The translations under genes and the position numbers were made by a program. DNA of 64,000 bases from Opitutaceae bacterium. Lineage in GTDB: Bacteria; Verrucomicrobiota; Verrucomicrobiia; Opitutales; Opitutaceae. The stretch is from contig JAEUGW010000054.1 in the NCBI GenBank assembly GCA_016795565.1, positions 1 to 64,000 of the forward strand, in the 5' to 3' direction. The notes beneath the pieces are model-generated. The model saw only the letters and a program-made list of their open reading frames with translations, did not search any database and had not been told where the DNA came from. Below are positions 2,326 to 24,181 of this stretch, piece after piece (the stretch's first letter is position 1; each line of letters opens with the position of its first letter).

Positions 2326-2697
2326 ATGAAACAGTCCTACAAGACCATCATCACGGCCGCGGCGATCGCCGGCCTCTACCTCGGCGCCATGGCGGCCAAA
2401 TCCTACGCGGCCGACGCCGGCTCGACCGCCCCCACCACCGAGAAAGCCAAGGACAGCTGTAAAGGCAAAGACGGTTGCAAGGCCAAGGACGGCAAGGACA
2501 GCTGCAAGGGCAAGGCCGGATGCAGCGGCAAGTCGGAAGGCAAGGCCCACGACTGCAAGGGCAAGAACGAGTGCAAGGGCAAGGGCGGCTGCGGGTCGAG
2601 CGACAACGGCTGCAAGGGCAAGAATTCCTGCAAGGGCAAGGGCGGCTGCGCCTCGGCCCACGCCGAGAAGGGCGAGGCCAAGAAGGACAAGAAGTAA
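2326..2697 (+). CDS. bufA: Bufferin-type Cys-rich precursor peptide (BufA-like)
   Basis: A 123-residue exported precursor. Residues 1-28 form a signal peptide, followed by a short Thr/Pro spacer and then a Lys/Gly/Cys-rich region. Ten cysteines (45, 51, 60, 66, 77, 83, 89, 96, 102, 108) fall into four groups, always spaced C-x5-C and mostly reading CKGKxxC. This matches the bufferin family of periplasmic copper-binding RiPPs, whose cysteines are oxidised by an MNIO (DUF692) enzyme. The identification rests on the composition and on the adjacent bufB, bufC and bufD genes. I chose the ATG at 2326 because it directly precedes the signal peptide. A strong hairpin follows the gene. The number of modified cysteines is unknown. 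Confidence 0.8.
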
Positions 2698-2742: not shown

Positions 2743-2772
2743 ACGGGAGGCCGGGCACCGCCCGGCCTCCCG
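2743..2772 (+). terminator. Strong hairpin between bufA and bufB
   Basis: A 13-14 bp GC-rich stem (acgggaggccggg paired with cccggcctcccgt) lies about 45 bp after the bufA stop and is followed by only a short T-poor tail (tcaattt). It could be a partial terminator or a 3' stabilising hairpin that keeps precursor mRNA in excess over the downstream enzyme genes. Readthrough must occur if bufB is in the same transcript. Confidence 0.6.
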
Positions 2773-2805
2773 TTCAATTTCCGCCCCTTTGAACCCTCAA
2801 TACCT

Positions 2806-2898
2806 GTCATTCTGAGCGCAGCGAAGAATCCAGCTGAAGCTCCGCCACCGGGTATCGCCACAAAGTCCTCATGGATTCTTCGCTGCGCTCAGAATGAC
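2806..2898. repeat. Paired inverted-repeat element (family A), short form
   Basis: Two perfect 27-bp arms starting gtcattctgagcgcagcg face each other at 2806-2832 and 2872-2898, with a 39-bp loop. The same arms occur at 3876/4221, 5220/5267 and 24087/24155. Similar sequences are known as dispersed intergenic repeats in many bacteria. This copy fills the bufA-bufB spacer. Confidence 0.9.
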
Positions 2899-2983
2899 AA
2901 TCCGATTCAGCTATTTTCTACTGTGACATGGGTCATGACAAGTGAGAGATTAGCGTGAATTAGTGGTGCCCTGTTTCCCGCCC

Positions 2984-3865
2984 ATGCCTGCCAACCCATT
3001 CAACGGCTACACCGACTACGGCATCGGCATTGGCCTGCGCATCCCGCACTACGACCACATCCTGGAGCGGAAACCGACGGTGGACTGGTTCGAGATCATC
3101 TCGGAGAACTTCATGGTGGATGGCGGCCGTCCGCTCGAGGTGCTCGACCGCATCCTGGCGCAATACCGCGTCGTCCAGCACGGCGTCGCCCTCTACTTCG
3201 GCTCGGCCGACGGCCCGAACAAGGCGCACCTGAAGAAACTCAAGGCGCTCACGAAGCGCACCAAGACCCCGTGGCTCTCCGACCACCTCTGCTGGGGCAG
3301 CGCGGACGGCACCTACTCGCACGACCTGCTGCCGATGCCCTACACCAAGGCCGCCGCGAAAAAGACCGCCGCCAACATCCGCATGGTGCGCGATTATCTC
3401 GAGCTGCCCATCGCGGTGGAAAACGTCAGCTCCTACACCGAGTTCCACGTCTCGGAGATGACCGAGTGGGAATTTCTCAGCGAGGTCGTCGAGCGCGCCG
3501 ACTGCGGCGTGCTGCTCGACGTGAACAACATCTACGTCTCGTCGAAGAACCACGGGTTCAACCCGTATGATTATCTCGACAACGTGCCGCATCACCGCGT
3601 CGCGCAGATGCACATCGCGGGGCACACCAAGTTCGAGAAATACATCCTCGATACGCACGACCACCCAGTGCTCGACCCTGTCTGGCAGCTCTACGCCCAC
3701 GCCATCCGGCAATGTGGCGTCACCGCCACGCTCCTCGAGTGGGATGACAAGATCCCGTCGTTCGACGAGGTGCACAACGAAGCCCTCAAGGCCAATGCCT
3801 TCATCGCCCAAGCCCGCGCGGCGAAGATTCCGGCTCCCAAGGGTAGGGCGACCGCCAAAAGATAG
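2984..3865 (+). CDS. bufB: MNIO/DUF692 bufferin-modifying oxidase (BufB-like)
   Basis: A 293-residue TIM-barrel protein of the multinuclear non-heme iron oxidase family (DUF692). Candidate iron ligands and conserved motifs are visible: IPHYDHIL (His22, His25), ISENFM (Glu41), SDHLCW (Asp100, His101), ENVSSY (Glu146), LLDVNN (Asp179, Asn181-182) and QMHIAGH (His210, His214). Family members oxidise cysteines of their precursor peptide to thiooxazole or related groups. Here the likely substrate is the upstream Cys-rich BufA-like peptide. A GTG at 2963 is an alternative start. I prefer the ATG at 2984 because MPANPFNGY matches the usual family N-terminus. It should act in the cytoplasm before precursor export. 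Confidence 0.9.
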   Translation: MPANPFNGYTDYGIGIGLRIPHYDHILERKPTVDWFEIISENFMVDGGRPLEVLDRILAQYRVVQHGVALYFGSADGPNKAHLKKLKALTKRTKTPWLSDHLCWGSADGTYSHDLLPMPYTKAAAKKTAANIRMVRDYLELPIAVENVSSYTEFHVSEMTEWEFLSEVVERADCGVLLDVNNIYVSSKNHGFNPYDYLDNVPHHRVAQMHIAGHTKFEKYILDTHDHPVLDPVWQLYAHAIRQCGVTATLLEWDDKIPSFDEVHNEALKANAFIAQARAAKIPAPKGRATAKR

Positions 3866-3875
3866 CCCAAGCGCC

Positions 3876-4244
3876 GTCATTCTGAGCGCAGCGAAGAATC
3901 CATCACCATGCCCGCCAGCCCAGCTCATCGCCGCTATTGGGTATATATTCTGGCCAGCAAACCCAGCGGCACACTCTACATTGGAGCAACCAATTCGTTG
4001 AAGCGACGAATCTGGGAGCACAAGACGGGTGCAATTGCCGGTTTCACGAAGCAGTATTCAGTCAAAACTCTTGTTTATCTTGAGTCCCATCGAAATGTCA
4101 CTGACGCCATTCAGCGCGAAAAGGCGCTCAAAGGTTGGCTTCGCGCCAGGAAGGTCGATCTGATCCGACAGGAGAATCCGCTTTGGCAGGATTTGGCTGC
4201 CGACTGGTATCAGCTTCCGATGGATTCGCTGCGCTCAGAATGAC
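3876..4244 (+). mobile_element. Putative GIY-YIG-encoding form of the family A inverted-repeat element
   Basis: The left arm (3876-3902) is identical to that of the other family A copies. The right arm (4221-4244) is its inverse with a 3-bp deletion. Between them lies not a 20-41 bp loop but a 318-bp interior filled by a GIY-YIG endonuclease gene, whose last seven codons and stop are made from the right arm. This is the layout expected of an autonomous parent of the short copies. That it moves is an inference; no target-site duplication was established. Confidence 0.55.
3908..4243 (+). CDS. Small GIY-YIG endonuclease
   Basis: A 111-residue single-domain protein with the GIY-YIG fold: the VYI strand near residue 12, YIG near residue 24, the arginine-rich helix LKRRIWEHKTG, and AIQREKALKGW, whose glutamate is the likely metal ligand. 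It resembles the stand-alone GIY-YIG (UPF0213/SLX1-like) nucleases. The C-terminal MDSLRSE is encoded by the right inverted-repeat arm. The gene interrupts the bufB-bufC spacer, in the same orientation as the operon, and has no obvious role in bufferin synthesis. Cleavage specificity is unknown; it may cut at or near the repeats, as homing nucleases do. Confidence 0.85.
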   Translation: MPASPAHRRYWVYILASKPSGTLYIGATNSLKRRIWEHKTGAIAGFTKQYSVKTLVYLESHRNVTDAIQREKALKGWLRARKVDLIRQENPLWQDLAADWYQLPMDSLRSE

Positions 4245-4255
4245 AGAATCGGGAA

Positions 4256-5200
4256 ATGCCCATTAACCCCAAATCAAAACCCTTCGCCCCGGCGAAAGTC
4301 GCCTCCACCGCGGAGCTCGCTGACCTCCAGCGCGCCATGTGGCGCGTGGTGTCGCGGCCTCTGACCGGCGGCAGCCGCATGCAGCGCCGCTGGACTGACG
4401 GCCGCCCCACGAGCGCCGTGGCCGGCGAGATCGCCAAGCCCAACGATCGGCTCACCTCCTTCGAGCGGCTCGAGATCTACAACCGCATGTATTGGTTCCG
4501 CGTGCTCGACAGCCTCTACGACGACTGCCCCGGGCTGCGCGCGGTGTTGGGTGACAAAAGATTCATCGCGCTCGCCGAGGCCTACCTCGTCAAATACCCG
4601 TCCGGCTCCTTCACGCTGCGCAACCTGCCGTCGCGCCTGGCGAAGTTCATCCGCGAGGCGCCGCGCCACACGAAGCCACACACCGCGCTCTGTCACGACC
4701 TCGCGCGCTTCGAATGGGCGCGCGTCGAGGTGTTCGACACCGCCGCGCGGCCGGTCTTCACGATGGACGACCTCCTCGATGTGCCGGCGGCAAAGCAGGG
4801 AAAGCTGAAGCTCGCGCTGCAGCCTTACTTGCAGCTCCTGCGGCTGGAATATCCGGTGGACGACTTCATCCTCGCGGTGAAGCAGCGCGAGGCGGAGCTG
4901 TTGCGTGGCGACGCCAGCAACGCGCCGTCGGCGCTGCGGAAGCTCAGGGAGCGGAAGACGAAGCTGCCCAGACCGGCACGCACCCACGTCGCCATCCACC
5001 GCCTCGACGGCCGGATCTATTTCAAAAAGCTCGAGCCCGCCGCCTACCGCATCCTCGTCGCGCTGCGCGCCGGGAAGACGCTGGAGCAGGCGCTGGTCAC
5101 CGGCATACCACGGGCAAAGCAGGCGAGGGCGGACTGGGCCGCGAAGGTTCAGGGCTGGTTCCGCAACTGGATGGAACTCCGCTGGCTGTGCCGGCGGTGA
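4256..5200 (+). CDS. bufC: DUF2063 bufferin biosynthesis partner (BufC-like)
   Basis: A 314-residue protein whose N-terminal half matches the DUF2063 putative DNA-binding domain seen next to DUF692 enzymes (LTSFERLEIYNRMYWFRVLD, then YPSGSFTLRNLP). The C-terminal half is poorly conserved (HRLDGRIYFKKLEPAAYRIL). In bufferin systems this protein forms a complex with the MNIO enzyme and probably helps recognise the precursor leader. Normally it directly follows bufB; here the GIY-YIG element separates them. The start at 4256 lies 11 bp after the element's right arm, so the element may affect its translation initiation region. Confidence 0.85.
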   Translation: MPINPKSKPFAPAKVASTAELADLQRAMWRVVSRPLTGGSRMQRRWTDGRPTSAVAGEIAKPNDRLTSFERLEIYNRMYWFRVLDSLYDDCPGLRAVLGDKRFIALAEAYLVKYPSGSFTLRNLPSRLAKFIREAPRHTKPHTALCHDLARFEWARVEVFDTAARPVFTMDDLLDVPAAKQGKLKLALQPYLQLLRLEYPVDDFILAVKQREAELLRGDASNAPSALRKLRERKTKLPRPARTHVAIHRLDGRIYFKKLEPAAYRILVALRAGKTLEQALVTGIPRAKQARADWAAKVQGWFRNWMELRWLCRR

Positions 5201-5219
5201 CGGCTATACTTCCGTTTCC

Positions 5220-5293
5220 GTCATTCTGAGCGTAGCGAAGAATCCAGAGGAACGCGGGAGTCCTGATGGATCCTTCGTTGTGCTCAGGATGAC
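5220..5293. repeat. Family A inverted-repeat element, short diverged form
   Basis: Arms at 5220-5246 and 5267-5293 match the other family A copies with a few substitutions (cgtagcg for cgcagcg; ggatcc and tgtgct in the right arm), separated by a 20-bp loop. It sits in the bufC-bufD spacer, so each of the operon's three spacers has one copy. Confidence 0.85.
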
Positions 5294-5343
5294 ACATCGG
5301 CGGAAACGCAGGAATAATCCCCGCGGCCATTCCTCCCACCGCC

Positions 5344-5799
5344 ATGCAACTCCGCCCCATGCTCGCCAGGTTCGATGCGCTCGCCGCGCACCTCCAATCG
5401 CCGCTCCTGCTGGTGATCCGGCTCTATTGGGGCGTCTCCTTTGCCCAGACCGGTTGGGGCAAGCTGATGAACCTCGGGCGCACGGCGGGCTACTTTGAGT
5501 CGCTCTCCATCCCGCTGCCGAAGCTCAACGCCATCATGGCCGGCGCGACGGAGACCCTCGGCGGCGTGCTGCTGGCGCTCGGACTGTTCGCGCGGCCGGC
5601 GTCGGTGCCGCTCATCTTCACCATGCTCGTCGCCTACGCGACGGCGGACCGCGAGGCACTCGGCGCGATCGTCAGCGACCCGGACAAGTTCCTCACCGCC
5701 GCGCCGTTTCTTTTCCTGCTGGCGGCGCTGCTCGTGCTGGCCTTTGGCCCGGGCCGCTTCTCGGTTGACCGGCTGCTTGCGCGGAAAACGTCGGACTGA
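5344..5799 (+). CDS. bufD: DoxX-family inner-membrane protein (BufD-like)
   Basis: A 151-residue protein with about four transmembrane segments. DoxX features are visible near the N-terminus (LLVIRLYWGVSFAQTGWGKL) and in the second helix (AGATETLGGVLLALGLF). DoxX proteins occur at the end of bufferin operons and are thought to act in membrane redox or in handling the modified peptide; the exact reaction is not established. It is co-oriented with bufA-C and ends about 20 bp before a convergent gene, closing the operon. Confidence 0.8.
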   Translation: MQLRPMLARFDALAAHLQSPLLLVIRLYWGVSFAQTGWGKLMNLGRTAGYFESLSIPLPKLNAIMAGATETLGGVLLALGLFARPASVPLIFTMLVAYATADREALGAIVSDPDKFLTAAPFLFLLAALLVLAFGPGRFSVDRLLARKTSD

Positions 5800-14540: not shown

Positions 14541-14614
14541 GTCATTGCGAGGAGCGCAGCGACGAAGCAATCCAGCTGGATCGCCACGACCCGCTCCGCA
14601 GGTCTCGCGATGAC
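14541..14614. repeat. Intergenic inverted repeat (family B)
   Basis: Left arm gtcattgcgaggagcgcagc... and an imperfect inverse ending ...ggtctcgcgatgac bracket 74 bp in the 292-bp gene-free stretch 14351-14642. The element is related in style to family A but distinct in sequence. The rest of the spacer also contains ggcggagcggcccgctccgcc-type dyads near 14441-14465 and no gene that I can support. Confidence 0.75.
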
Positions 14615-24086: not shown

Positions 24087-24181
24087 GTCATTCTGAGCGC
24101 AGCGAAGAATCCATCGGGATTTACGTTGCGCAGCAGTGGGAGCGATGATCCGACTGGATTCTTCGCTCCGCTCAGAATGAC
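24087..24181. repeat. Family A inverted-repeat element between fadJ-like and E1-E2 genes
   Basis: 27-bp arms at 24087-24113 and 24155-24181 with a 41-bp loop. The left arm is identical to the bufferin-operon copies and the right arm differs by one base. It occupies most of the proximal part of the 260-bp spacer 24066-24325, which holds no gene. Confidence 0.9.

Follow-up and report, generated by a model that had tools for sequence, protein, structure and literature searches.

A GIY-YIG nuclease gene set between CGTC-type REPs in an Opitutaceae bufferin operon: a candidate enzyme for these repeats

Why does every spacer of a bufferin operon carry the same inverted repeat, and what put it there? 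The question is raised by a 64,000-nt stretch of an Opitutaceae bacterium (GenBank assembly GCA_016795565.1, contig JAEUGW010000054.1, positions 1 to 64,000; hereafter the window), in which the three spacers of the operon bufA to bufD indeed hold members of one inverted-repeat family, as a first-pass annotation had reported, the middle pair enclosing a GIY-YIG nuclease gene. We find that the operon elements are almost certainly dimers of repetitive extragenic palindromes (REPs) of the CGTC type, and that the nuclease is a candidate for the missing partner of these REPs, since its relatives in many phyla are flanked by palindromes that match. The features concerned are as follows.

2806..2898, halves 2806-2831 (+) and 2873-2898 (-): CGTC-type REP dimer 1, in the bufA-bufB (A-B) spacer
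3876..4244, halves 3876-3901 (+) and 4219-4244 (-, with a 3-nt deletion): dimer 2, in the bufB-bufC (B-C) spacer, with the nuclease gene
3908..4243, plus strand: single-domain GIY-YIG nuclease of 111 aa (PF01541 7e-16), its last codons and TGA stop lying inside the right REP
5220..5293, halves 5220-5245 (+) and 5268-5293 (-, with 4 mismatches): dimer 3, in the bufC-bufD (C-D) spacer
24087..24181, no strand assigned: fourth dimer of the same family in the window

CGTC REPs were described by Di Nocera et al. (2013, PMC3733652) as tiny scattered palindromes in Proteobacteria, Chlorobi, Bacteroidetes, Spirochaetes and Thermotogae. In the sections of that paper available to us, the tyrosine transposase genes of CGTC-bearing species are never flanked by CGTC REPs, the repeats are concluded apparently to 'lack a dedicated transposase', and neither GIY-YIG proteins nor any other enzyme is reported.

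Each element in the operon consists of two head-to-head 26-nt REPs, GTCATTCTGAGCGNAGCGAAGAATCC, and each half is an imperfect palindrome, ATTCT-GA-GC-GNA-GC-GA-AGAAT, whose 5+2 bp stem is split by tandem G-A mismatches and capped by a 3-nt GNA loop. A pyrimidine-GA-purine context makes tandem G-A mismatches stable. Together with its two closing pairs, the loop makes up d(GCGNAGC), described in PMC4686876 as an extraordinarily stable DNA mini-hairpin. Across 169 halves the GTC is near-invariant, preceded by T (111/152) or C (34/152); the AT-first stem pairs are present in 163/169 and 167/169 halves, and A follows CC in 142/152. The sole strong covariation signal in these halves lies within the half, between columns 6 and 22 (TA 98, CG 43, GC 24) and columns 11 and 17 (GC 133, AT 34). 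Over 82 dimers, 159/164 and 161/164 halves retain these within-half pairs, whereas only 41/164 and 90/164 pair at the same columns between halves, as in a long hairpin. What the family conserves is the short stem of each half and not the long hairpin, the two halves mismatching each other.

The two halves of a dimer also tend to differ: they are of one two-pair type in 7 of 82 dimers, where shuffling gives 20.4 (a count as low as 7 was not reached in any of 20,000 shuffles), and are identical in two. Head-to-head order holds for 79 of 83 adjacent pairs no more than 120 bp apart, and the start-to-start spacing is stepped, at 48-49, 55-56 (52/82), 60 and 66-69 bp, with one dimer at 166 and two, with the gene, at 343. 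The elements lack the target-site duplication of a cut-and-paste transposon derivative such as a miniature inverted-repeat transposable element: none of 3-11 nt was found at any of 76 dimers. A weak and unexplained motif lies in the outer flank (CC at -9/-8, CCT at -3 to -1), and G-type halves (in dimers such as C4:5902, C10:50635 and C31:131188 of this genome) have an extended outer flank resembling AATGAACATTCCAAG.CATT, so the boundary of the G-type subfamily may lie further out.

The whole genome (3.52 Mb in 56 contigs) holds 171 halves at up to 3 mismatches, against none for the reversed pattern. The set assembled from the window and further stretches of the genome comprises 185 halves at up to 5 mismatches, with 163 at up to 3 compared with the 171 found genome-wide, and is arranged as 82 head-to-head dimers and 21 singles that merge into 99 sites. 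About 99 sites amount to approximately 3% of intergenic spacers, assuming one gene per 1.1 kb, so the family is far from occupying most spacers, the situation in which the annotation would have regarded its clustering as unremarkable. The annotation had also counted one further copy in the window, that at 24087-24181, and this too is what we found (with up to 3 mismatches allowed, the window gives 6 matches and 100 shuffles give none). The clustering itself exceeds a uniform null, and is modest and not unique to the operon. Under uniform placement, which takes no account of REPs mostly avoiding coding DNA, 0.21 triples within 2.5 kb would be expected and two were found, the bufferin operon and C10:115089-116886 (P 0.025); gaps of at most 2 kb between sites number 11 against 5.28 (P 0.013). 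By gene context, co-directional pairs hold 63 of 93 sites, divergent pairs 12 and convergent pairs 7, with 9 falling within a called open reading frame (ORF) and 2 at a stretch edge, as scored with a simple gene caller that missed bufA and thus placed the A-B element among the divergent; since background gene pairs are 212 co-directional, 51 divergent and 51 convergent, the excess between co-directional genes is mild. An Rfam search returned no match over the gathering score (one sub-threshold match, 2732-2773, E 0.21), and a 12-nt piece of the REP half gave no exact-string match in literature text.

The gene-bearing B-C copy is 369 bp long. Among eight GIY-YIG matches in this genome, two lie inside a dimer of the present REP family (CTGAG-type), namely the copy in the operon (contig C27) and one at C49:9856, between two sugar-ABC-transporter-like ORFs as read from translations; both have the same 3-nt deletion in the right REP half. 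The gene sits in a fixed register within the dimer, and most copies end in LRSE-stop, or a variant, encoded by the right REP. The PF01541 match exceeds its cut-off, and Y13, Y24, G26, R34, E71 and N90 are invariant in 10 sequences, some of these being residues that we take to be catalytic. The ratio of nonsynonymous to synonymous substitution rates (dN/dS) is 0.09 between the two copies of this genome and 0.03-0.23 wherever dS is unsaturated, pointing clearly to purifying selection. In the predicted fold (mean predicted local distance difference test score, pLDDT, 78.6; below 50 in the REP-coded tail), the nearest structure is the UPF0213 protein 1zg2, followed by Slx1, a branched-DNA nuclease. 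No published link between GIY-YIG proteins and REPs was recognised from titles and abstract openings, which does not establish its absence from print; the available part of a phylogenomic study of GIY-YIG proteins (PMC1564403) includes a passage on their C-terminal Glu and nowhere mentions palindromes or an intergenic location.

This association extends through the genus and order. Together with this genome, these relatives offer 25 distinct nuclease places (26 rows, with L156 and L168 overlapping), and a CTGAG-type REP stands on both sides of the gene in ten of them, the halves starting exactly 348 bp apart in six places. Elsewhere, one place has a dimer on one flank and a single REP on the opposite flank (L146), two have a REP on one side (L164, L166), three are associated with a second REP family (L155, L165, L170), and nine have neither family. 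Intact or broken bracketed copies occur in 9 of 14 genus genomes with at least 10 halves, compared with 0 of 7 with fewer (p 0.007). Comparison of flanks in the genus and a neighbouring genus reduced 12 nuclease loci to five sites, two of them in this genome: one is common to six genomes (in G019 by one flank only), two are each common to a pair (the C49 copy and that of G021 by the upstream flank only), and two are unique, the bufferin site among them. The nuclease therefore appears to be mostly inherited in place, as are genes for REP-associated tyrosine transposases (RAYTs), with occasional movement. The nuclease of an Oleiharenicola sp. (Opitutaceae; L188) is identical in the tree to that of G012, a genome of the window's genus.

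Two internal controls are available in the same genome. The second REP family, of TGTC/CGTC type (GTCATTGCGAGGAGCG...), has 49 matches here, 24 in G012 and 26 in G044, and a second nuclease lineage is found among its units: L170 (C20:20577-20858 of this genome, with one internal stop), L165 and L155. No cross-pairing between the two REP families and the two nuclease lineages was seen in this genome or its relatives. The other control is the set of five Y1_Tnp matches in this genome, none of which lies within ~1.5 kb of a CTGAG-type REP as far as the contigs reach; three of the five (L048, L050 and L051, RAYT-like) each have GTAG/GTGG hairpins of their own on both sides, and the hairpin sequence differs among the three. 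The genome thus carries two parallel arrangements, in which RAYTs go with GTAG-type REPs and GIY-YIG genes with CGTC-type REPs.

We observed the same arrangement far beyond the order. A scan of named genomes gave 80 nuclease loci, the best 80 of 576 relatives; they come from at least a dozen phyla, and several have flanks cut by contig ends. A strict structural rule defined a CGTC REP and its expected orientation. Such a REP was found upstream of the gene at 35 loci, downstream at 34 and on both sides at 23, while 10,382 random placements in the same loci gave 93 upstream, 55 downstream and none on both sides, and 294 other ORFs in these loci gave 7, 8 and 0. Wrong-orientation REPs numbered only 2 and 10. 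The REP subtype (three labels of our own making, one a catch-all; that of L198 is doubtful and was kept) is the same on both sides at 20 of the 23 bracketed loci and changes 9 times on the nuclease tree compared with 26.5 when shuffled. When 24 of the 46 labelled loci were removed for being at least 65% identical to a kept one, the remaining 22 rows showed 4 changes against 10.8, the lowest of 300 shuffles being 7. In both sets REP subtype follows the nuclease tree, with host lineage only partly controlled, and CTGAR-type rows come from Verrucomicrobiota, Chloroflexota, Chlorobiota, Nitrospinota, Myxococcota, Bacillota and Bacteroidota.

Plasmids show the arrangement as well. In eight annotated records, chosen from 36 matched, the gene is REP-bracketed in Azospirillum lipoferum AZO_p3, Rhizobium CIAT894 and an Aeromonas caviae record, and partly by eye in Shinella HZN7 and N. 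aromaticivorans pNL2, while the N. gonorrhoeae and Planktothrix records have REPs near the nuclease gene and no clean bracket. The A. lipoferum gene (L260) lies in the sufB-sufC spacer, another operon spacer, and that of the Planktothrix agardhii plasmid (L263), with its nearby REPs, has an MmeI-type restriction gene on one side and drmA of DISARM on the other.

From the REP anatomy, covariation, fixed register, bracketing across phyla, subtype tracking and purifying selection described above, we infer the cutting, the mobilisation and the later steps. The nuclease is probably the cognate enzyme of CGTC REPs, and would act on them. The REPs would be mobile intergenic repeats that inserted into the bufferin operon at least three separate times. 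Each 26-nt half, when single-stranded, would form a short hairpin of its own, capped by a GNA triloop; the nuclease would recognise this hairpin, or the branch at its foot between the GTC tag and the CCA tail, on single-stranded or cruciform DNA. Cutting at the hairpin foot is a possible but less secure part of this scheme, after which host repair or replication would complete the copying to intergenic sites. The 369-bp B-C copy would be the enzyme-coding form and the short dimers the non-coding form. As a whole, we tentatively propose that CGTC REPs and the GIY-YIG nuclease could constitute a second REP system, which would run parallel to that of GTAG REPs and RAYTs and extend over at least a dozen phyla. 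Its unit would be a self-spreading element of ~370 bp encoding a structure-selective nuclease of ~111 aa that cuts its own REP hairpins, and the short dimers would be its non-coding derivatives.

Several observations weigh against this proposal. By the strict rule, 34 of the 80 loci have no REP, although this rule also misses real brackets (pNL2, whose stem starts with GC, and the right REP of Shinella HZN7, both seen by eye); the S. meliloti pSymB nuclease lacks a REP, and the subtype tree has few supported forks. Six REP-bearing genomes of the relatives (G010, G011, G015, G017, G020 and G035, several of the genomes being incomplete) have no bracketed nuclease, and most copies in the genus are vertical, as the 12 loci at five sites indicate. 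With generic DNA energies, isolated halves fold weakly (-2.9 and -1.9 kcal/mol, z about -0.5), whereas the A-B copy gives a very stable long hairpin (-37.3 kcal/mol, z -10.5). Finally, no GIY-YIG enzyme is known to join strands.

If the proposal is true, elements of ~370 bp would be among the smallest autonomous mobile elements, and the frequent, mostly overlooked annotation 'GIY-YIG nuclease family protein' would be explained as part of a mobile repeat system. A small nuclease between matching REPs across phyla provides a named and easily purified candidate for the CGTC REP enzyme, and a genus in which two REP families each have a nuclease of their own offers a ready specificity test.

We consider it unlikely that the gene is instead a homing endonuclease that invades REP dimers as target sites while the REPs spread by other means. 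Its position within dimers in fixed register would suit such an invader, the GIY-YIG fold is one of homing endonucleases, some REP-rich genomes lack the nuclease gene, and a target-specific parasite would track REP subtype too. Efficient homing, however, should fill many of the ~82 dimers of this genome, of which two are occupied by intact genes, and inheritance at the same site in six genomes looks like that of a resident gene.

Mobilisation of CGTC-type REPs in trans by a RAYT, with the nuclease gene as a passenger, seems improbable. Five Y1_Tnp matches are present, and a CT dinucleotide often precedes GTC, CT being a site at which RAYTs can cut according to PMC8266576; but none of the five lies near a CTGAG-type REP, three have REPs of their own, and a passenger would leave both the bracketing across phyla and the subtype tracking unexplained. 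We give similarly little credence to a domesticated nuclease that clears or trims extruded palindromes and so keeps REP hairpins in check rather than spreading them. The Slx1-like predicted fold, long vertical inheritance at one site and purifying selection would all fit this role, but the gene itself lies between REPs, at five sites in the genus and its neighbour and at two in this genome, as expected of something mobile.

There remains the operon, whose genes are as first annotated, with a BufA2-like precursor (its profile score under the cut-off), BufB, DUF2063 and DoxX. Its genes and two further features of the window are listed here.

2326..2697, plus strand: bufA, Cys/Lys-rich bufferin precursor, BufA2-like (NCBIfam NF050166 34 bits, under the cut-off of 60; operon position)
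2743..2773, plus strand: GC-rich hairpin directly after bufA, a candidate attenuator separate from the repeat element
2984..3865, plus strand: bufB, MNIO (multinuclear non-heme iron-dependent oxidase) bufferin maturase (PF05114 2.4e-106; NF050167 343 bits, over the cut-off of 310)
4256..5200, plus strand: bufC, DUF2063/RRE (RiPP recognition element) partner (PF09836 2.5e-12; HvfC-like 46.8 bits, under the cut-off of 142)
5344..5799, plus strand: bufD, DoxX family (PF07681 6.9e-22)
14541..14573, plus strand: unit of the second REP family

The first-pass annotation had offered two readings of the occupied spacers, local hopping of a mobile repeat or selection for hairpins that set the ratio of precursor to enzymes. 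The mobile repeat holds in outline, since the spacers (A-B/B-C/C-D) are occupied differently across species: 1/1/1 here, 0/1/0 in G020, 0/1/1 in G016 and G013, and 1/0/0 in G009, while the remaining 11 of the 15 operons read in relatives have all spacers empty (including that of G004, whose sequence ends after bufB). Local hopping does not hold: when elements are compared by inner spacer, each of the two short operon elements comes far down the list of the other's relatives (49th and 44th of 78), and local duplication inside the operon was rejected as the operon elements are not nearest relatives. In ten REP-bearing relatives with a complete operon, 6 of 30 spacers are occupied compared with 0.32 expected (0.64 if only half of the spacers are usable), and counting three separate events only gives P 0.004 to 0.03. 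Because some insertions may be shared by descent, an operon hotspot is suggestive only; the C-D elements of this genome and G013 lie at similar distances from bufC and are equal in length.

That the elements are selected regulatory hairpins setting the precursor-to-enzyme ratio is highly improbable: all three spacers are occupied here, the excess in relatives (inflated by shared ancestry) would fit, and folding allows long hairpins in the A-B and C-D copies, but most relatives' operons lack the element, the long hairpin is unconserved over the 82 dimers, a terminator scan found nothing at the elements of the operon, and a different hairpin, that after bufA, is widely kept. The bufA hairpin has counterparts in nearly all 16 operons, the window included (weaker or different in G020, G023 and G024), many followed by T-rich DNA, and is likely an attenuator and a better candidate than the REP element for setting this ratio. 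Given that the elements are not nearest relatives and that a separate hairpin follows bufA, we find no support for local hopping or for the element as a setter of the ratio, and the operon element is best seen as tolerated mobile DNA.

Three further observations concern these spacers. The right end of the C-D dimer (window 5289-5318) supplies ATGACA, 18 nt before AATAAT, a 10/12 promoter match; a GGAATAA-like motif lies ahead of bufD in many relatives without the element; and the bufA-bufB spacers of G012 and G020 (L070, L071) contain, by eye, other GTAG-like palindromes.

Compared with known systems, the elements resemble CGTC REPs, as described in PMC3733652, in their unpaired T/C-GTC tag, AT-first stem, CCA-like tail, predominance of head-to-head dimers and frequent heterodimers. 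The two-part stem with tandem G-A mismatches and the GNA loop differ from the 8-9 bp stem and 4-5 nt loop of the four published families, and because these lengths differ we regard the elements as a variant of the CGTC class and a member of none of the four. The nuclease shares a single GIY-YIG domain with UPF0213 and Slx1 nucleases, the nearest solved folds to its prediction being 1zg2 and 6seh; unlike them, its gene is embedded in a REP dimer, and its C-terminal residues are REP-coded and predicted to be disordered. It shares a catalytic domain family and a selfish-element setting with GIY-YIG homing endonucleases; in contrast to these, no intron, intein or other DNA-binding domain was seen in its 111 aa, and the gene is present in 1-2 copies among ~82 dimers. 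Measured against RAYT systems, the tag is CGTC/TGTC rather than GTAG, the enzyme is a GIY-YIG nuclease rather than an HuH/Y1 transposase (none of the five Y1_Tnp loci is bracketed by this REP), and the long hairpin between halves is unconserved. In overall design, the elements nonetheless resemble REPINs (REP doublets forming hairpins) and bacterial interspersed mosaic elements (BIMEs) with their RAYT, and REPtrons, as presented in PMC3116915, PMC6006769 and PMC8266576: short inverted pairs of intergenic palindromes, an enzyme gene bracketed by its own REP, and one REP family per enzyme.

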